Of a DNA stretch of 64,000 bases, positions 35,568 to 43,582 are shown piece by piece. The stretch's first letter is position 1. Each line of letters starts with the position of its first letter. This DNA comes from Candidatus Limnocylindrales bacterium (GTDB taxonomy: Bacteria > Desulfobacterota > Binatia > UBA1149 > CAITLU01). Under the pieces are notes generated by a model, which saw only the letters and a program-made list of their open reading frames with translations, searched no databases and was not told the DNA's origin. Location: assembly GCA_035571835.1 (NCBI GenBank), contig DATNBU010000044.1:62001-126000 (forward strand), given 5' to 3'. The position numbers were made by a program, and so were the translations under genes.

Positions 35568-38500
35568 CTATCCTTTCCTGTCGCGATCGGCCTTGTTGGC
35601 TGATGAACCGCGCTGCACATCCCAGCCTAGTCGCTCATTAACCTTTCGCAGCTCGGTCGTAAGTCGCGTTCCAACTAAACCAATTCGCATTGCAGCTTTC
35701 CCAATATGACGCACCGGTATTGGTTCACGCGGATTCAAGTAAGGCGGAAGTCCATCAAGATCCCTTGAGAACAATAGCCGGCCGAAGCTCCGTGACGTCC
35801 CTGATAGCAGACTGGCTGCGTGACCATCTATGTGCGCGCGTAGGCGCATCAGATTTCGGGTCTTCTCGTCGAGCCATTTTTCAGACAGGTATTGCCACGC
35901 GATGTCGCGAACTTCGTCAGATGGATCTGCAACAACTGCTTGGCTGACGGCATCTCGTGTTTCCTCGTCTGGCCAGGTGCTTACGATGGCTTGCAGTGCG
36001 GAGTGTCGAACGCCGCTGTGTGTATCGTGCAGCAAACGTTCAACAACGAGCGCGCGGCTGGCGCCGTCCGGACGTATTTTTGCAATTGTCAATATGGCTG
36101 CACCACGGACGATTGGATCCTCATCGTATTGCGCGTGATGCACTATCAGGTCTCTCGCTTTTCCATCCGGCCAATGCGCGGCCAGCAACTGCAGTGCATC
36201 GCTCCGGCTCGCGGCGTCGCCGTCGGCCATTATATTCTCGAGTAGCAGCCGGTGACTATCGTTCGGCCAAGTCTGCACGAGGGCTTGGAGCGCGGCAGCG
36301 TGGAGCTTCCAGAGATCAGCCTTTGGTGACAGAAGATCAGTAAGAAAAATGCGCGTCCGTTCGTCAGGCCAACGCTCGGACAGCGCGCGGACGCATGCAG
36401 CGCGAATTTCAAACTCGAATTTGGAGAACCGAATAATCGTCTCGAAGAGATCCCGCGCCACGCCACTACTGGGAGCTCGCCATGCTTCGATGCCCCCGAA
36501 AAGACTCTCCCACGTCATTCCGGAACCTGCCTCAAACTTTGAGCCGCAGCACAAATCGTCCGTGAGCCACCCCGCCATTCGAGACGAATCACGTCGAATG
36601 AGCGCAGAGAGATAGGTGCCAATCGGCGTAGCGCTACGGTCCTCGAGTATATGAACCATACTGAACAGCTCGTCATTTGAAAGATGGGGAAGCAGGAGAT
36701 CGATCGCGTCGCGTCGAACCTGATACAAGCTCGCTTTTGTCGCATCGATCAGCTGCGGTTTGACCGCCCCGCCGAGTTGTCCAAGTGCTGCTAGAATTTC
36801 AAGCTGAGTCGTGGCCGGAACGCGCGACCCCTGATTGAAAACGTCCAGGGTGGACTTAAGGGCGGCCTCGAATACTTTACGCGTATCGGGTCGCAACTCC
36901 GCCACTCCCGCAATGTCCCGAACGATGTTTGCGCATAGCGCGACTACAGGAGCCCGCTGCGCTATAGACTGACCTCGCTGCTGAAGAAGCCACTTAACAT
37001 ATCGATTCGCCTTCTCGTCGGACTCTTTTGCCCACTGTCCGCCAAGCAACTGAAGGGTCTCAAACCACTTCGCCAAACGGAGTCGGGGTTCGATGATTTT
37101 AGTAACGTCGTCAAATTCGAGATTCGAAAGTTGCCAAGCTGCCAAAAACTCCTGGAACGTCAGATGCACAAAGCGATAGCTCAGCGTGCGCCTGCTGACC
37201 AACAGACCGCTGGTCAGTTCCTGTCGCTGGAGGAATAGTTCTGCTCGCGCGGCCGCGTCGTCCTCGCTCTTTGCGCCTTGATCAATGAAACGTGGCGCTA
37301 AGAGCTTGATCATTTCCGCCTTTGAGGCCTCGTCGTGATCGGCATCCCGACAAAGAATGTGTAGAGCGATCTCTGCAAATCTCTTTCGAACCCATGCACG
37401 TCGCTCATGGATTTCGTCCTCTGATCGTTCGTCGAATATCCCGAACTTGCGACTGTGCTGAATGTGTTCAGCCTCTCTCCGTTGCCCTAGAAGCACATCC
37501 ACACATTCGTCGTATAAATCTACACGCTGTTCTGGAAGTCGCTTTCGGTTCCAATGAACGATGGCGACTACCGTCAGGAGCAGCGGGTTCACCGCCAGCG
37601 TTCGAATCCTATCGTTCTTTTCGACCCCTTCGAGAAGACTCGTAAATTCACGTTCTGCATCGCTGGTGGGGCTATTCACATCCTCCGGACGGATTCGAAA
37701 CAACAGTGCGACCCAGTTACGAACAAAATGGAGACGATCCTCAAGATCAAACGGCTGGATATCACAACGCGCGAACCCACCCTTAAGAATTGTATCCCCA
37801 GTATAAGCTCGGATTCTCGAGCTAACGACGAATCGGTTCTCGCTGTACCGGTGGACAAAATCTTCCGTCAGTCGACTGACTGTCGCGCGAGCAGCATCAG
37901 AAGGGACTTCATCGAGTCCGTCGAGCAGGATGCAGCAGCTTCCAGATTCGAGAATCGCTTCGACGTCAGCAGTGCCGACTTGAAAGTCATACGTAGTGAG
38001 TCGATCAGCGATGAACTCTACCAAGGTGCTGGCACGGGCATGTCCTTTTTGTTTCAAGAAATCAGACAGATCCCAACACGATACAAAGATCGGGATTGGT
38101 AGCGGTTCGACGAAAGAAAGCTTTTCGAGTGCTAGGGCAGAACTCTTAGTTAGGAATGATCGAGCCAGGATCAGGGCCACAAACTTCAGGAAGGTGGATT
38201 TGCCGCTTCCGGGATCGCCGACAATCACAAGCTTACGATACCGCGCCAGAGCGGTCTCAATATCAATCGCAGCTCCTTCGGAAGTCTCAGCGCTATCAGG
38301 CTGACCATTCGCATCTGGGTCGAACATGACCCGCAGCTTCACATAGATTTCGCTTAGCGGAATCTCGAAAGTGCGGTCGTTGTCGATTCCAGAAATATCC
38401 AACCGGTGGAAGTTCTGTTCTATGTGCCGGTAGTAGCTGGGAGACGGGAGCGGAGTGTTTGTTTCGACAGCAATCTGTGTCGGTGCCTCAATTGCCCAAG

Positions 38501-39074
38501 GCCTCGCGGGGTTGCTGAGCCACTGACTGAGGTCGCGATCAAATACATCTGCGAAGCCATCCTCTCCGGGGTAGTCTGCACTGAACACTCCAAGCTCACG
38601 AAGTCTTTCACGGAATCGAAGCACCTTCTCCCACTGGTCTGCGGCCGATCGAATCTCCACTAGATCGTTTGACTCTATTAAGAAGCGCTCGCTGTGTCGG
38701 AAAAACCACTTTATCTCAGGCCAACCGCCATGAGTTCGGTGCCATCCTAAAGCTGTATTGAATTCCTCTTCTGTTCCGGACTCTGCCTTGCCAGTGGGAG
38801 TGCCAAACCGTCGCCCCATGATGCCAATCACGAGCACTAGCGAATCTTTGAATCGCTCTAATGTTTGCGCCGTAATAAGCTCCTGCGGATGACCGATTCC
38901 TGTCGTCGCGTAGTTTTTCCAATCGACTACATCAAACCGCGCGCCCCAAACGTGCGCCGTGCCACGATTGTAGTGATCGAAGAATCGGTGCACATGCGCT
39001 CGCTCACCGTCTACATCCTTCGGCGACGCCAAAAATACGTGGTATTGTTTCAGCGCACGAGGAGTTAGAGCCAT
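35568..39074 (-). CDS. NLR-like defence protein: DUF4062-like, NACHT ATPase, HEAT-like repeats
   Basis: 1168 aa from the ATG at 39074, which has an AAGG ten bases upstream. Residues 10-190 match a DUF4062-like domain (YHVFLASPKDVDGERAHV, LVLVIGIMGRRFG, SGTEEEFNTAL), a putative effector. The linker LDISGIDNDRTFEIPLSEIYVKL is typical before NACHT. The NACHT ATPase has Walker A GDPGSGKST (286-294), Walker B ILLDGLDEVP (383-392) and RFVVSSRIRAY. FVHLTFQEFLAAWQL ends the helical part. The C-terminal third is helical repeats (PDERTRIFLTDLL, WPDGKARDLIV, WPDEETRDAVS), probably the sensor. Bacterial NACHT proteins of this design protect against phage by abortive mechanisms. The low G+C contrasts with the chromosome. 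Confidence 0.85.
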   Translation of the reverse strand: MALTPRALKQYHVFLASPKDVDGERAHVHRFFDHYNRGTAHVWGARFDVVDWKNYATTGIGHPQELITAQTLERFKDSLVLVIGIMGRRFGTPTGKAESGTEEEFNTALGWHRTHGGWPEIKWFFRHSERFLIESNDLVEIRSAADQWEKVLRFRERLRELGVFSADYPGEDGFADVFDRDLSQWLSNPARPWAIEAPTQIAVETNTPLPSPSYYRHIEQNFHRLDISGIDNDRTFEIPLSEIYVKLRVMFDPDANGQPDSAETSEGAAIDIETALARYRKLVIVGDPGSGKSTFLKFVALILARSFLTKSSALALEKLSFVEPLPIPIFVSCWDLSDFLKQKGHARASTLVEFIADRLTTYDFQVGTADVEAILESGSCCILLDGLDEVPSDAARATVSRLTEDFVHRYSENRFVVSSRIRAYTGDTILKGGFARCDIQPFDLEDRLHFVRNWVALLFRIRPEDVNSPTSDAEREFTSLLEGVEKNDRIRTLAVNPLLLTVVAIVHWNRKRLPEQRVDLYDECVDVLLGQRREAEHIQHSRKFGIFDERSEDEIHERRAWVRKRFAEIALHILCRDADHDEASKAEMIKLLAPRFIDQGAKSEDDAAARAELFLQRQELTSGLLVSRRTLSYRFVHLTFQEFLAAWQLSNLEFDDVTKIIEPRLRLAKWFETLQLLGGQWAKESDEKANRYVKWLLQQRGQSIAQRAPVVALCANIVRDIAGVAELRPDTRKVFEAALKSTLDVFNQGSRVPATTQLEILAALGQLGGAVKPQLIDATKASLYQVRRDAIDLLLPHLSNDELFSMVHILEDRSATPIGTYLSALIRRDSSRMAGWLTDDLCCGSKFEAGSGMTWESLFGGIEAWRAPSSGVARDLFETIIRFSKFEFEIRAACVRALSERWPDERTRIFLTDLLSPKADLWKLHAAALQALVQTWPNDSHRLLLENIMADGDAASRSDALQLLAAHWPDGKARDLIVHHAQYDEDPIVRGAAILTIAKIRPDGASRALVVERLLHDTHSGVRHSALQAIVSTWPDEETRDAVSQAVVADPSDEVRDIAWQYLSEKWLDEKTRNLMRLRAHIDGHAASLLSGTSRSFGRLLFSRDLDGLPPYLNPREPIPVRHIGKAAMRIGLVGTRLTTELRKVNERLGWDVQRGSSANKADRDRKG

Positions 39075-39566
39075 GATTCGCACCTTCTCGACTGACCTTG
39101 GTCGCCATGTATTCCAGACACACCCGGCATGTCTGCTCCGGCCTAACCAATCTCGATGACCTGCGCCAAGTCACGTCAACGGAATCTCCCCGGGTTCTAA
39201 AATCAGCGTCGCAAACCTTCGCCTGCCATTCGCAGCATGCGCTGGGGGGCATGGGCGTGACGAAATCGATCGTCAAGTTTCGTCATTGCGGTTATCACTC
39301 GGGGCCACTGGGGTAGACGCGAATTGCGCTTCAAGCGAGCTGGCTAGCAGTGCTAGAGGTTTAGCCGCCGTGAGATCGCCTCGACAGATGCGGCCGATAA
39401 GAACGCCGTGAAAAGCAGGACGGACAAATCCATAGCCACTTCACTCTCCATCGCCCTAGCCTAGTAGAGTCGGAGTGGAATGAAAGAAGATGCCCCAAGG
39501 CGTGCTGCCGCCAAGAAATTGCCTCGACTGACGCGGCAACTCTCGGTGTCGGCGATCACGCCTAGG
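39075..39566. other. 492-bp region between NACHT gene and four-gene operon
   Basis: No large gene. TGACGAAA and TTTCGTCA (39258-39265, 39278-39285) form a perfect 8-bp inverted repeat with a 12-nt spacer, 184 bp upstream of the NACHT start; it could be an operator or hairpin. A small hydrophobic open frame lies at 39353-39451 on the minus strand. The NACHT promoter must lie here, because the operon upstream ends at 39567. No terminator with a U-tract was recognised. Confidence 0.4.
39353..39451 (-). CDS. Candidate 26-32 aa hydrophobic small protein
   Basis: A minus-strand open frame of 32 codons starts at ATG 39451; a second ATG at 39433, preceded by GGAGAG, would give 26 residues. The shorter product is MDLSVLLFTAFLSAASV followed by a charged end (EAISRRLNL): one short hydrophobic helix and a basic tail. 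It stands alone, 278 bp upstream of the NACHT gene. Small membrane peptides of this kind can be type I toxins or leader peptides, but such frames also arise by chance. No homologue is known to me. Confidence 0.3.
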   Translation of the reverse strand: MESEVAMDLSVLLFTAFLSAASVEAISRRLNL

Positions 39567-40250
39567 TCAGCGCTGATAAAAAGATTCAATAATTTGATAG
39601 TTGCCGGTCCTTACCGTCGCATGCTCAGCTTTTATGACATGATTGAGCATGTCAGGAACTTGGTTCCGAATCGTTAGTTCGACAATGGCTGAGTAGTCAG
39701 GACTGCGCCGCCGCGATTCATATGGGTAGTCCGCTAGAGTTCTAAATGTCGATCTGCCGCGAGAATGCGCGAACGGTCGAGTATTCCCAGTATTCATATG
39801 AGTGATCTCAATACTCGGCTCGTACTTCGCAACCAGTGACGCGCTATCAACGTAAATAATCGTGTGAGTACGAGCCCGGTACTCTGCGGCCGACATGAGT
39901 GTGATCAGGCGCTGGAAATTCAGCCAGAAGAATACGCGCTCGTTCAATATGCGATACCACGTTGTCGCATCGCAGTCTGTTAGACATGATTTCAGCTTTT
40001 TTTCCGAAAGCGGTTTTTGATCACGCAGGACAGCGATTTCCCCTCCAGCGTTTGAAATTACCACCGACTCGCGACGCTGCATCGAAAGGAGCGCTGTCCG
40101 ATCCGGTTCGGAAATAGCGAACGAACTGGTGAGGGCTTCTGAACTCAAAAGTCCTAGTTTGGTGATTAGCGGCCACGAGCCTTCCCAAGCCATGTGGTAG
40201 AGCACTGGATAACGCCTAGTTAGATCTTCGATGCTGACTGACACGATCAC
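39567..40250 (-). CDS. DUF7002-like protein, possible ADP-ribosyltransferase-fold toxin
   Basis: 227 aa from GTG 40250, whose GTGA overlaps the stop of the kinase-PurA-like gene; GTG 40253 is an alternative. YPVLYHMAWEGSWPLITKLGLLS (about residues 14-36), VLRDQKPLS, WYRILNERVFFWLNFQRL (98-114) and YSAIVELTIRNQVPD with E191 fit a family I believe Pfam lists as DUF7002. The order YHM...GLLS, VFFWL...R, VEL resembles the H-, strand- and Glu-motifs of DarT/KptA-type ADP-ribosyltransferases. This link is inference, strengthened by a macrodomain encoded two genes upstream. It is the last gene of the operon. Confidence 0.65.
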   Translation of the reverse strand: MIVSVSIEDLTRRYPVLYHMAWEGSWPLITKLGLLSSEALTSSFAISEPDRTALLSMQRRESVVISNAGGEIAVLRDQKPLSEKKLKSCLTDCDATTWYRILNERVFFWLNFQRLITLMSAAEYRARTHTIIYVDSASLVAKYEPSIEITHMNTGNTRPFAHSRGRSTFRTLADYPYESRRRSPDYSAIVELTIRNQVPDMLNHVIKAEHATVRTGNYQIIESFYQR

Positions 40251-41860
40251 CACGCTCGCCGATCAATAATACTTTTCCAATGGAACCTGGTCGAAACCAG
40301 CGAGACTGGAGCCGAGGCAACTTTTTCGATCTCCTCCGCAAACCGAATCGTTTCTGGTGTCAGCTGCTCGAAGCGACGCGCGTCACTGTTCTTGCTCGCA
40401 ATGTAGTCCGCGAATGTAAGTGCAATATCCGTGGGTGCATTCAACGAAGCCGCTTTGCGTAGCAGCACCCAATCAAATTCGCCGACGCGTCGGCGCTTAT
40501 GGGAAACTGACCCAAGTTCGACCTTCTTCAATTCTGTTTCTGGAAGACCAGAGCGGTTGCTGATTTCTTTCCAAGTCAGTTCCCCCGCCCGTAGTGGGCC
40601 TGATGAATGGCCGCTCGGACTTTGAACTCTGATGACGTAGCTACGGCATACCATAACCACGCGCCTTACTCGGATCGGCGGTATTCCTGCTTCCGCTAGA
40701 CAGCCCGCGACTGTGGTATCGCGCGAGGTCACGTGCGGGTAGGTACCGTGGTAGATGCTAAGGCCAGTACCTTGCGTTCCTTCGAGGAGGACGCGTTTTC
40801 TCTTCGCATACGCCTCTTCCAGTTGCTCGGCGACCGGACGACAAAACGCTTTAAGTGTCGGGATGTCGCGAGCTAATGTGTGCTTGCTCTTAGCGCGATC
40901 AAGGATGCGCCGCGCTGCAGCGGCGCCGACGCCTTGTCCAGTAGAGCCAATTACATCTACAAGTCGCTTTTCATTGCGGCGGTCAGCTTCGTTGATAACC
41001 ATCGCTTGAGGGTCGATTGATAGGCGCTTGCTGTCAACGTCGCAGTCGGCGACTTCCTTCAGGAGAGTGTTGATATCAATTACCGCACCGGGGCCAATGA
41101 GAAGCTGCGCGTCGCAGAAGCGCGTTCCTGAAGGCAGTTGTCTGTGCGTGTATGGCTCGGGATCCTGAAAAACTTTGTGGCCGGCGTTTGGACCACCAAC
41201 TCTCACTAGCACGTCGTATTCCGGCGCAATGTAGGAACATATATGCCCTTTACCCTCGCTGCCGAATTGCCCGCCCACCACAACATCGACTACGCGATCA
41301 TGCTCTCGACCGTATAGCCCAAGGTGGCTTGCGACTCGGACAAGGACGTCTTCCACTTTGCTTTGGTCACTCTGTACCACAACGTCAGCGATATCCTTCA
41401 ATCTGCCAATTCTACTTTCTGTTTTACTGCCAGCGCGGACTTCTGAGTAGGATGGTAGCTCTCTGGCAACGCTCCCTTTCCTGCCAATATAGCGGTCAGC
41501 CAATTCGTCGTCGGAGGCGCTGAGGTGAATATGGACAACGCGCGGGCCATATGCACGTCGTAGGGCATCGACCTGCTCCGACTTACGAACCGCATCCACA
41601 ACGACAAGCGATTCCTGTAGCGCCCGATCATGTATGTACCTGCTGAGTTCCTGCTCGACCCAGCGGCCATTAGTTTTCGCGTCCAATCGATCGCCTAGGC
41701 GTTGAAGCTCACGACGCTCGCTCCGTGCGTCGGGGTAGCGCGACTGAATGATAGATTTTGTCTTTAGTATGTACGCTCCGAAGCGGTCTTGCAGGCCTTG
41801 GCACAGCGTGGATTTCCCTGCCGCCACGGGGCCCGAGATTAGAACGATCTGGAGTTTCAT
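40247..41860 (-). CDS. P-loop nucleotide kinase fused to PurZ/PurA-like adenylosuccinate synthetase
   Basis: 537 aa. Residues 1-183 are a nucleoside-monophosphate-kinase-like domain: Walker A GPVAAGKST (10-18), VVVDAVRKSEQVDALRRAYG and VHIHLSASDDELADRYIGRK. From 190 on the protein is an adenylosuccinate synthetase homologue: VVVGGQFGSEGKGHI, GGPNAGHKV with His228 (E. coli His41), LLEGTQGTGLSIYHGTYPHVTS and the aspartate loop SVSHKRRRVGEFDW. The catalytic Asp of PurA (GDEGKGK) is Ser201 here, as reported for phage PurZ, which makes succino-dGMP from dGMP and aspartate. The kinase could process the product or substrate. The start is three bases after the macrodomain gene stop. It is not a housekeeping PurA. 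Confidence 0.85.
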   Translation of the reverse strand: MKLQIVLISGPVAAGKSTLCQGLQDRFGAYILKTKSIIQSRYPDARSERRELQRLGDRLDAKTNGRWVEQELSRYIHDRALQESLVVVDAVRKSEQVDALRRAYGPRVVHIHLSASDDELADRYIGRKGSVARELPSYSEVRAGSKTESRIGRLKDIADVVVQSDQSKVEDVLVRVASHLGLYGREHDRVVDVVVGGQFGSEGKGHICSYIAPEYDVLVRVGGPNAGHKVFQDPEPYTHRQLPSGTRFCDAQLLIGPGAVIDINTLLKEVADCDVDSKRLSIDPQAMVINEADRRNEKRLVDVIGSTGQGVGAAAARRILDRAKSKHTLARDIPTLKAFCRPVAEQLEEAYAKRKRVLLEGTQGTGLSIYHGTYPHVTSRDTTVAGCLAEAGIPPIRVRRVVMVCRSYVIRVQSPSGHSSGPLRAGELTWKEISNRSGLPETELKKVELGSVSHKRRRVGEFDWVLLRKAASLNAPTDIALTFADYIASKNSDARRFEQLTPETIRFAEEIEKVASAPVSLVSTRFHWKSIIDRRAW

Positions 41861-41863
41861 AAG

Positions 41864-43291
41864 CTAAAAACTAGCGGCATACGGCAGATCAAGTTGAGAG
41901 CGCGGCTTGATGCTCGCGTTTGGAAGGTCATAGATCGTTACCGCGATCCCTCGCGCGCATAGTTCTTCGGAGATCAAATTGGCGACTAGGGGCCAGGATC
42001 CGCCGGCTTCACCACTACCAATTCTTGGCATATGTATGGCTGCGCGATTCTGAAGAGCGATGTCGGCCAGTTGTTTCAAGCAAACTCGCAGCGCCCCATA
42101 TTTTAAACGAACGGTTGATGATGGGCCGTAGCCGTGCTGGCAAATCATCTGAAAGGCCAAGGTATTGGTCTCAACTCTCGAGGCGTATGTTTGTCCGAGC
42201 CGTGATCCTCGCAAGGCCTCGAAGTGGAGGCGAAAAGCACGTTGCGCTTCCGGCCATCTTTCTTTCAGAGCTCGACCAAATCCAGCACCCCAATTGGGAG
42301 TCTTGTCGTTCACTATGTGTGCGATGATCTTTTCGCCAGATCCGCGAGGTGCCAGCGCGTTCCCGCGAAGAATCTCAACCGAAGGCCCCAAGTTACGAAC
42401 TGAACCGGGTCGCAACAGACCGGCGATGCGCGGCGCGACGCGTCCCAGGTAGGGCGAAATTCCAACCAGTTCGACTCGAAAGCGTTCTGCCGACGACCAA
42501 GTTTCTGTCGCCTTCGCCGTCTCGCCAATGGCTCTAATCTCGTTTGCTACGCTAGTCGCGGGCAAGCGGTATCCGCGTTTAATACCTGGATCCCAGCCAG
42601 CTGTGTGTTTAACGTACTCCACAACATAGGTTGGAGTATGAGTGGCACGAGTCTCGTCGCGGACAGCTGCAAATGCCGCGGCAGGAGATCCGGAAAGTCC
42701 TATGAGTCGCAATATCACGGCTTCGACTGAGGCTTCGTATCTTTTCCGAAGCGCGAGGGCTGTGTCGATGGAGAGATTGGATCTCGATAGGTCATCTTGG
42801 ATGCTGCCTATCGGGAGTAGTAGTTCAGCCGCCGCGAGATTACACAGCATTTCAAGTTCATATTCGGCCGGCGACGTTGCGGCGTGATGCCCGCGATTCC
42901 TGATCTCATCCGTGCAATCTGGGAAAAAAGTGTGAGCCAATTCATGGCACAAAGAGAAACGAACCCGACCGCGAGACCTGCTTGGATTGTATTCTATGAT
43001 CGGTCGGCCGTTCGGACCAGACACCGTTCGGGCATCTGGAATGTCTGCTCGCGAAACGACAGAAATCCCTCTTAATTCGGCCAGCTTGAACGGATCGACA
43101 GGGACTGTCAGCGCGCACTTGTCTACAGCGTCGAGCACTAACTGTCTTGCACTGTCCACGATCACGTCCATAGGGTCGCGATCACCTGCCAAGCGTAAGA
43201 CCGAGGGATGACTCCAAGCGCGGCTGATCGGATCGCGCTTAGTAGCGTACTTTCCGATAACAGCATTCGAAAAATCGTATTCTTTTCTCAT
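41864..43291 (-). CDS. ImmA/IrrE metallopeptidase fused to macrodomain, with BrnA-like N-terminus
   Basis: 475 aa. The first 20 residues (MRKEYDFSNAVIGKYATKRD) look like the start of BrnA-type antitoxins that follow brnT. Residues 45-200 are an ImmA/IrrE-type metallopeptidase with HELAH (116-120) in FSLCHELAHTFFPD and a downstream E-x-L-C-N-L-A-A-A-E-L-L-L-P helix. Residues 305-458 are an ADP-ribose-binding macrodomain: EILRGNAL, HIVNDKTPNWGAGFGRALKERWPEA, MICQHGYG, HMPRIGSGEAGGSWPLV and VTIYDLP. It resembles the TARG1/DarG type, but the TARG1 catalytic Lys position appears to be Gln. The ATG at 43291 lies six bases after the brnT stop with AAGG upstream; TTG 43294 is possible. Proposed role: antitoxin or sensor of the operon. 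Confidence 0.85.
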   Translation of the reverse strand: MRKEYDFSNAVIGKYATKRDPISRAWSHPSVLRLAGDRDPMDVIVDSARQLVLDAVDKCALTVPVDPFKLAELRGISVVSRADIPDARTVSGPNGRPIIEYNPSRSRGRVRFSLCHELAHTFFPDCTDEIRNRGHHAATSPAEYELEMLCNLAAAELLLPIGSIQDDLSRSNLSIDTALALRKRYEASVEAVILRLIGLSGSPAAAFAAVRDETRATHTPTYVVEYVKHTAGWDPGIKRGYRLPATSVANEIRAIGETAKATETWSSAERFRVELVGISPYLGRVAPRIAGLLRPGSVRNLGPSVEILRGNALAPRGSGEKIIAHIVNDKTPNWGAGFGRALKERWPEAQRAFRLHFEALRGSRLGQTYASRVETNTLAFQMICQHGYGPSSTVRLKYGALRVCLKQLADIALQNRAAIHMPRIGSGEAGGSWPLVANLISEELCARGIAVTIYDLPNASIKPRSQLDLPYAASF

Positions 43292-43297
43292 CAAGCC

Positions 43298-43582
43298 TTA
43301 CTCTCGATCTGCGCGGTACGCGGCACGTTCCGCCGCGCTGGGACGGCGCGCGCTGATAATTCGTGTCCTCTCGCCTCTGTCACAATGGCACACGACTATC
43401 AGCGTGCCGTGTCTCGAAGTGCCGATCGTAACGAACCGTTCTTCGTCCACAGAATGGTCTGGGTCGAAGACCGTTCTCGAAAGCATATCCGCGAAAATAG
43501 TACTTGCCTCATTGAACGAAACCCTGTGCTTGCGGAAGTTCGATTCTGCTTTCTTATCGTCCCATTCGAAACCTCTAGCCAT
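43298..43582 (-). CDS. brnT: BrnT-type RNase toxin
   Basis: 94 aa, typical length. FEWDDKKAESNFRKHRVSFNEASTIFADML, DPDHSVDEERFVTIGTSRHGTLIVVCHCDRGERTRIISARRPSAAERAAY match the BrnT toxin throughout, including the EERF and RxRIISAR motifs. BrnT folds like RelE and cleaves RNA until bound by its partner BrnA. Here the gene after it is not a simple BrnA but a peptidase-macrodomain fusion that starts with a BrnA-like stretch. It is the first gene of the four-gene minus-strand operon. Its own ribosome-binding site is weak. Confidence 0.88.
   Translation of the reverse strand: MARGFEWDDKKAESNFRKHRVSFNEASTIFADMLSRTVFDPDHSVDEERFVTIGTSRHGTLIVVCHCDRGERTRIISARRPSAAERAAYRADRE

Follow-up and report, generated by a model that had tools for sequence, protein, structure and literature searches.

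A peptidase-macrodomain gene behind brnT lies in an apparently undescribed three-gene toxin-antitoxin-like module

We analysed a stretch of 64,000 nucleotides (the window) of contig DATNBU010000044.1 from Candidatus Limnocylindrales bacterium (assembly GCA_035571835.1; Desulfobacterota, Binatia in GTDB). It encodes P0001, a protein in which an ImmA/IrrE peptidase is followed by a macrodomain. P0001 is the first gene of a conserved operon that also encodes a kinase fused to adenylosuccinate synthetase (AdSS) and a DUF7002 protein. The operon is apparently an undescribed three-gene toxin-antitoxin-like module that occurs across several bacterial phyla. We consider it reasonably probable that P0001 is the sensor-antitoxin of this module, which would be a DarTG-like stress or anti-phage system. 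In this genome P0001 is also encoded directly behind an intact brnT and starts with a peptide typical of BrnT partners. A first-pass annotation, made from the window's letters, had proposed a sensor-antitoxin tied to two toxins, BrnT and the DUF7002 protein; the kinase-AdSS gene and the conserved three-gene operon were absent from it.

The operon and its distribution

The three genes are as follows.
41864-43291, minus strand: P0001 open reading frame (ORF), ImmA/IrrE (M78) peptidase then macrodomain, 475 residues
40247-41860, minus strand: kinase-AdSS gene, the second gene of the operon
39567-40253, minus strand: DUF7002 gene (P0004), DarT-type ADP-ribosyltransferase fold in its model (PF22531, E 1.3e-57)

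The kinase-AdSS gene begins 3 nt after P0001 and is overlapped by the DUF7002 gene over 7 nt. To follow the distribution, a DUF7002 alignment was scanned against 84,980 genomes, one per species, and the best 80 of 108 relatives were kept; one locus from viral contigs brings the set to 81 DUF7002 loci. The whole operon, in the order M78-macrodomain, kinase-AdSS, DUF7002, is present at 21 of the 81, and the record titles of these place them in Acidobacteria, Verrucomicrobia, Planctomycetes, Alpha-, Gamma- and 'Delta'proteobacteria, and Actinomycetota. At 29 other loci, kinase-AdSS and DUF7002 are accompanied by an HD protein and by P0007 (450 residues), and at one by P0007 only. A further combination, AdSS and DUF7002 without either partner set, was found six times: L071 and L078 are cut by the contig end, L074 lacks a kinase match and L111 has only the end of the AdSS. 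The M78-macrodomain and HD/P0007 sets never occur together at one locus, as expected if either set fills one role. At L059, L075 and L082, all of the HD/P0007 type, there is a flanking M78 gene without a macrodomain. The HD protein is weakly like the 5'-deoxynucleotidase YfbR (below the Pfam cut-off), and P0007 has no Pfam or NCBIfam match at E 0.01. Judging by record titles, the HD/P0007 type (L048-L052, L055, L058, L061, L066 and others) belongs mostly to Alphaproteobacteria.

Within the window's class, a full-length P0001 homologue is encoded in 3 of 147 other genomes (148 with the window's own), each time with both other genes. One of these, L174, is identical in sequence to L088, already among the 21 loci, hence two are new. 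Eight plasmid records carry a full-length kinase-AdSS, and all eight are among the ten plasmid records with DUF7002. P0003 and P0004, each used alone against viral contigs, produced no confirmed locus, alignment A1 gave the one locus counted above, and DUF7002 had no match in phage records at E 0.01. The macrodomain-peptidase alignment matched 30 loci on viral contigs, 28 in the macrodomain only and two over the full length. The latter, L196 (100% identical to L090) and L197 (97% like L060), hold the complete operon on IMG/VR contigs and are not independent cases; they indicate that predicted proviruses may carry the operon.

The literature searched, which left out most subscription papers, yielded no paper on this operon and none naming DUF7002. 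It likewise held none combining adenylosuccinate synthetase, macrodomain and anti-phage, none combining PurZ, anti-phage and adenylosuccinate, and none combining DarT, macrodomain and adenylosuccinate.

The peptidase-macrodomain protein

P0001 is divided into three domains.
42692-43216, minus strand: peptidase domain of the M78/ImmA-IrrE family, containing HELAH (residues ~26-200; PF06114 and PADLOC capP)
42404-42679, minus strand: middle beta domain, at the position that a GAF-like sensor domain occupies in CapP/PprI (residues ~205-296; structure alignment of the model)
41921-42382, minus strand: macrodomain of BT1257/SCO6735 type (residues 304-457; phmmer and structure alignment)

In the front part, Pfam family PF06114 matches residues 78-196 (E 2.4e-11), with HELAH at residues 116-120, and the PADLOC capP model matches residues 48-264 (E 3.1e-24). 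Across 22 aligned rows, the window included, the metal and catalytic residues His116 and His120 are present in all 22 and Glu117 in 21. Glu147, the candidate for the third ligand, is also found in 22 of 22, as is Arg109, seven residues ahead of the first metal histidine and so at the same spacing as Arg85 of PprI. This comparison, by spacing, covers Arg85. According to the available portion of PMC10904395, single-stranded DNA (ssDNA) activates PprI via Arg85, Arg207 and Arg267, Arg85 being in ssDNA patch 1.

An AlphaFold model of P0001, built with 21 homologues, has a mean predicted local distance difference test score (pLDDT) of 84.4, and residues 1-24 are below 50. The model was compared with solved structures using VIA-align, in which Z values below 8 are common by chance. 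Its residues 34-300 align with residues 6-279 of CapP (Z 16.7, 4.9 Å, 233 residues), and essentially the same front part (~34-300) with the PprI-ssDNA structure 8sln (Z 16.0, 6.9 Å, 224 residues). Fold assignments by VIA-align, and by Foldseek below, rest on the families present in the match lists, and families absent from them are not thereby excluded. Like CapP, the regulator of the cyclic oligonucleotide-based anti-phage signalling system (CBASS), and like PprI/IrrE, P0001 combines an M78 peptidase with a sensor-like domain; unlike them, it continues into a macrodomain.

The macrodomain has no Pfam match at E 1. When residues 304-457 were compared with solved macrodomains by phmmer, 2afc (E 8.6e-32) and 5e3b, a Streptomyces coelicolor macrodomain (E 1e-27), were matched, and the first-pass description of this gene as a HELAH ImmA/IrrE peptidase plus macrodomain proved correct. 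In structure, the domain resembles 2fg1/BT1257 (Z 26.3, 1.6 Å, 155 residues) and 5e3b (Z 23.3) more than DarG (5m3e; Z 19.2). We take 5e3b to be SCO6735 from its entry title, 'macrodomain protein from Streptomyces coelicolor'. Identity to SCO6735/BT1257 in the structure alignment is 40%; these solved chains consist of a macrodomain only (148-157 residues). Gln385 of P0001 is invariant in the 22 rows and pairs with residue 85 of 5e3b in the phmmer alignment, at an offset of 20 counted from the alignment ranges. The accessible text of PMC9967889 states that SCO6735 strips ADP-ribose off thymidine and Asp/Glu, and that its Gln85 stands in for the catalytic lysine of DarG (Lys80) and of TARG1. Read through SCO6735 Gln85 in this way, Gln385 would take the place of Lys80 of DarG, a further respect in which the P0001 macrodomain differs from DarG. 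By its domains and model, P0001 would be a DNA-damage-sensor-like protease joined to an ADP-ribose-removing-type domain.

The DUF7002 protein as presumed toxin

At E 0.1 P0004 had no match among the PADLOC and NCBIfam models, without a check of which DarT models these two collections contain, and in Pfam at E 1 it matched DUF7002 only. A model built from 41 rows has a mean pLDDT of 94.3. Foldseek against the PDB gave one match below 0.001, E. coli C7 DarT1 with NAD (E 3.1e-4). In VIA-align the first six rows are all DarT (Z 10.7 to 8.3), the best over 161 residues and, at 10.7, moderately above the chance range. The conserved residues His20 and Arg60 (41 of 41 rows each) and Glu192 (40 of 41, the remaining row being gapped) recall H13, R51 and E160 of DarT by sequence order and surroundings, as given in the available part of PMC9967889. 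We presume that DUF7002 is a DarT-type ADP-ribosyltransferase and a toxin, which would give this family a testable function. DarT1 targets guanine in ssDNA, with NADAR as its counterpart, whereas DarT2 targets thymidine and has the macrodomain protein DarG as antagonist (from the accessible text of PMC12255303 and PMC11543638).

The proposed link between P0001 and DUF7002 is strong because the genes form one operon in many genomes and because the modelled fold belongs to a type of toxin whose action a macrodomain can undo. As in DarTG (DarTG1, DarTG2), an enzyme with a DarT-type fold in its model shares an operon with an ADP-ribose-removing-type domain, here in a protein encoded two genes upstream. 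Differences from DarTG are the lack of PADLOC and NCBIfam matches to DUF7002, the kinase-PurZ-like gene in between, and a macrodomain of SCO6735/BT1257 type fused to an IrrE/CapP-like peptidase.

Structures of Tpt1/KptA align with the DUF7002 model as well (Z 8.3 over 99 residues), level with the lower DarT rows. DUF7002 could accordingly be a Tpt1-like enzyme that processes nucleic acids or nucleotides with this fold and is no toxin, in an operon that repairs or recycles damaged nucleotides under an IrrE-like regulator; the existence of DUF7002 genes without partners would suit such a role. We regard this as improbable, given that the best DarT match is both higher and longer, and that the module is patchy, lies in a low-G+C stretch and has relatives on plasmids.

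Partnerless DUF7002 genes share one chromosomal setting in four Rubellimicrobium genomes (L053, L063, L097, L103), and the aligned ones, L053 and L063, keep the catalytic residues. When the genes around the DUF7002-only loci were clustered, overlapping frames merged into one cluster and no clear partner emerged.

The kinase-adenylosuccinate synthetase gene

Two domains are encoded by the second gene.
41321-41860, minus strand: P-loop nucleotide-kinase-like domain, the N-terminal part (AAA_18, E 2.8e-8)
40256-41290, minus strand: adenylosuccinate-synthetase domain with PurZ-type serine (QFGSEGKG; PF00709, E 8.8e-55)

The kinase part retains Gly15 and Lys16 in all 56 sequences compared, and its residues 6-171 match the PADLOC dCTPase model (E 7.5e-8). 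The AdSS part scores higher with the synthetase model PRK04293.1 (E 1.3e-88) than with the NCBIfam PurZ model (E 1.6e-61), and both scores are below the curated cut-offs. We take PRK04293.1 to be an archaeal-type model. In a quick tree of 28 rows with long branches, the kinase-AdSS sequences form their own clade, with a Shimodaira-Hasegawa-like approximate likelihood-ratio (SH-aLRT) value of 99, and do not fall inside the phage PurZ group. Ser201, at the position of the PurA aspartate in the GKG loop, is found in 56 of 56 sequences, as are Lys204 and His228. A motif comparison gave serine in five phage genes (L155-L159) and aspartate in two PurA genes, and serine is present in 100% of 147 phage PurZ in the portion of PMC12884076 available. 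The gene shares this serine with phage PurZ (2-aminoadenylosuccinate synthetase) and differs from it in the fused P-loop kinase, the separate clade and the setting in a bacterial module with an ADP-ribosyltransferase. A PurZ-like substrate is put forward as a hypothesis, and no more strongly, because PRK04293.1 scores higher and the tree sets the gene apart. A PurZ-type enzyme, known from adenine-replacing phages, is here placed in a bacterial toxin-antitoxin-like operon.

Through its dCTPase match, the kinase part recalls anti-phage dCTP deaminases with an N-terminal kinase-like part, in which a nucleotide enzyme is likewise fused to a P-loop domain. The module encodes a synthetase instead of a deaminase. 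By analogy, the kinase-PurZ-like enzyme might be the main effector and convert dGMP or another guanine nucleotide, so that phage replication is starved or poisoned; DUF7002 would then modify a nucleotide or the kinase-PurZ-like enzyme itself, with P0001 as the switch. The invariant serine argues for this, as do the dCTPase match, the presence of DUF7002 on every plasmid record with a full-length kinase-AdSS, and the HD protein with its weak YfbR likeness in one of the two module types. The preference for PRK04293.1, with neither cut-off reached, and the position outside the phage PurZ group argue the other way, and we think this explanation somewhat unlikely.

Related genes were seen on two plasmids. 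On a Sinorhizobium medicae plasmid (L036:5995-8057), a kinase-less AdSS with the PurZ-type serine is followed by a dCTP-deaminase-like protein (weak match). On a Rhizobium plasmid (L037:5363-11617), genes are annotated as FolE, AdSS, PurB, QueE, IMP dehydrogenase and QueC, perhaps a deazapurine-type pathway.

Proposed working of the module

In the sensor-antitoxin reading that we favour, DUF7002 would use NAD to mark nucleic acid (or a nucleotide or protein) with ADP-ribose. The macrodomain would remove this mark, hold the enzyme, or both, and the cell would survive. The CapP/PprI-like front part may sense ssDNA or a related signal and then cut a target, most simply one within the module; with this cut protection would fail and the toxin would act. 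The kinase-PurZ-like enzyme may make or remove a purine nucleotide, as a second arm or as the trigger. The scheme offers a way in which a toxin like that of DarTG could be coupled to a protease of the ssDNA-sensor type.

Several observations weigh against it. The likeness of DUF7002 to DarT1 is remote (TM-scores 0.39-0.42, root-mean-square deviation 9.6 Å), and the next Foldseek rows are other ADP-ribosyltransferase toxins. DarT1 is the nearest fold, yet it is countered by NADAR and not by a macrodomain (available text of PMC11543638). DarG models match the P0001 macrodomain weakly (E 0.0077 in PADLOC, 0.055 in NCBIfam). Unlike in CapP and PprI/IrrE systems, no helix-turn-helix repressor gene of CapH or DdrO type, which could provide the peptidase substrate, is among the three operon genes. 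The role given to kinase-AdSS is a guess. DUF7002 stands alone at 24 of the 81 loci, three of them with little upstream sequence, and the 14 of these 24 that were aligned retain the catalytic residues, so that DUF7002 is not necessarily toxic, or may have other antitoxins. Keeping the best 80 of 108 relatives favours loci like that of the window. The operon is also rare: within the 395-genome phylum sample, which includes the window's genome, no full-length homologue was found besides P0001 itself. Finally, the genes around the module suggest a defence-island context and do not decide the matter: 129 PADLOC models were matched in a sample of 130 of the 180 neighbour ORFs and 24 in 130 of the 200 control ORFs, where the counts are of models and not proteins, one protein can match many models, and the controls come from other genomes.

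The BrnT-partner peptide of P0001

Upstream of the operon are two further features.
43298-43582, minus strand: brnT, intact gene for a BECR-fold RNase toxin, 94 residues (PF04365, E 1.1e-25)
43220-43291, minus strand: BrnT-partner-like N-terminal peptide, P0001 residues 1-24 (profile score)

The brnT gene retains 34 of 36 conserved positions (30 aligned rows, window included). P0001 starts 6 nt downstream of its end, in the antitoxin position, as had been noted at first pass. We set the P0001 N-terminus, MRKEYDFSNAVIGKYATKRD, against the proteins encoded behind brnT in the same class. A profile of 20 columns was built from 27 of 29 BrnT-partner proteins, two being excluded because the core pattern was not found in them, and the window was not used in training. 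The score is 29.9 for P0001, against 13.6 for the highest of 4256 control ORFs and -2.9 for the highest of 21 M78-macrodomain homologues. Scored by leave-one-out, the 27 partners range from 7.6 to 46.6, two of them below the best control. Over all six frames of the window, the P0001 N-terminus is the sole stretch above 14, and no second BrnT-partner-like N-terminus is present. There is no in-frame ATG, GTG or TTG between codons 1 and 34, so the peptide is necessarily translated if the conserved peptidase start (Trp26, Ser30) is made from such a codon.

The resemblance to BrnA that had been suggested earlier holds for this N-terminal peptide and no further. P0001 as a whole has no match to PF14384 (BrnA) at E 1, and its identification as BrnA was rejected. 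The single BrnA-family match in the genome lies on another contig, with no BrnT match beside it.

Sorted by motif, the 27 partners (66-104 residues) fall into at least three body types: 15 carry 'VVLxPDVA', eight a BrnA ribbon-helix-helix, two 'LPIYL', and two something else. Because of these different bodies, the peptide, as judged from sequence motifs, is a front element that BrnT partners can carry on one body or another; we infer that it is also their toxin-binding part. The bodies at L126-L154 that follow the one peptide (EYDFSxAxRGKYA-like) appear unrelated, and BrnT antitoxins seem modular. Residues 1-24 of P0001 are probably a captured antitoxin tip, and neutralisation of BrnT by this putative antitoxin peptide is plausible. 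The arrangement is like BrnTA in the intact brnT, the closely following partner and its N-terminal peptide; it is unlike BrnTA in that the partner is a peptidase-macrodomain protein of 475 residues.

BrnT is not a regular partner of the module, and was rejected as such. No brnT was found at the 81 DUF7002 loci (E 1e-3), in four same-class stretches, at the seven plasmid loci L031-L037 or at the viral loci L196-L225 (E 1e-5). The BrnT-partner N-terminus is absent from all 21 M78-macrodomain homologues tested, which begin at about residue 26 of P0001. The BrnT link is therefore a private addition to the DarTG-like module, and the first-pass proposal is supported in part: BrnT as a second toxin under one sensor-antitoxin is not supported as a general arrangement. 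The peptidase-macrodomain make-up and the brnT-type N-terminus are two separate facts.

In this genome, the module would have landed behind brnT and taken over the beginning of the brnT antitoxin gene, in frame, as the N-terminus of P0001. This may have been a mere accident of fusion that left the old antitoxin codons as a meaningless tail, with BrnT silent or tolerated and P0001 working only with kinase-AdSS and DUF7002. With brnT present in 95 of 145 genomes of the class, the module could easily come to lie beside one by chance; the tail is found on none of the 21 other peptidase-macrodomain proteins and is modelled as disordered. We give this explanation close to an even chance. Against it, a conserved peptide has been kept in frame with no inner start codon, brnT is intact, and the same peptide stands on different bodies behind brnT (15, 8 and 2 of 27), which suggests that the peptide itself matters. 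It is of interest here because it is joined in frame and no second partner-like N-terminus occurs in the window. The captured N-terminus may let the same sensor hold BrnT too. In the fullest form of this idea, one sensor would serve two toxins: the macrodomain would check the DarT-type enzyme and the borrowed peptide BrnT, both would be freed on a DNA-damage or phage signal, and the PurZ-like enzyme would shift the guanine nucleotide pool, with the core an undescribed defence or stress system in at least five phyla. Taken as a whole, we hold this to be unlikely. The window in any case provides a natural experiment on the construction of BrnT antitoxins, in which one short N-terminal peptide is set on several unrelated bodies.

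In another genome of the phylum, a BrnT-like ORF (L024:82-303; 58% over 55 residues) lies about 600 nt from an ImmA/IrrE-type gene (895-2046) without a macrodomain.

Genomic setting

The 35-43.6 kb stretch of the window has a G+C content of 52-58%, compared with mostly 63-68% outside it, which fits acquisition from elsewhere. Within this stretch, the module is adjoined by a DUF4062/NACHT/HEAT-repeat gene (35568-39083, minus strand, 1171 residues) that matches the PADLOC candidate defence family PDC-S60 (E 2.2e-21).

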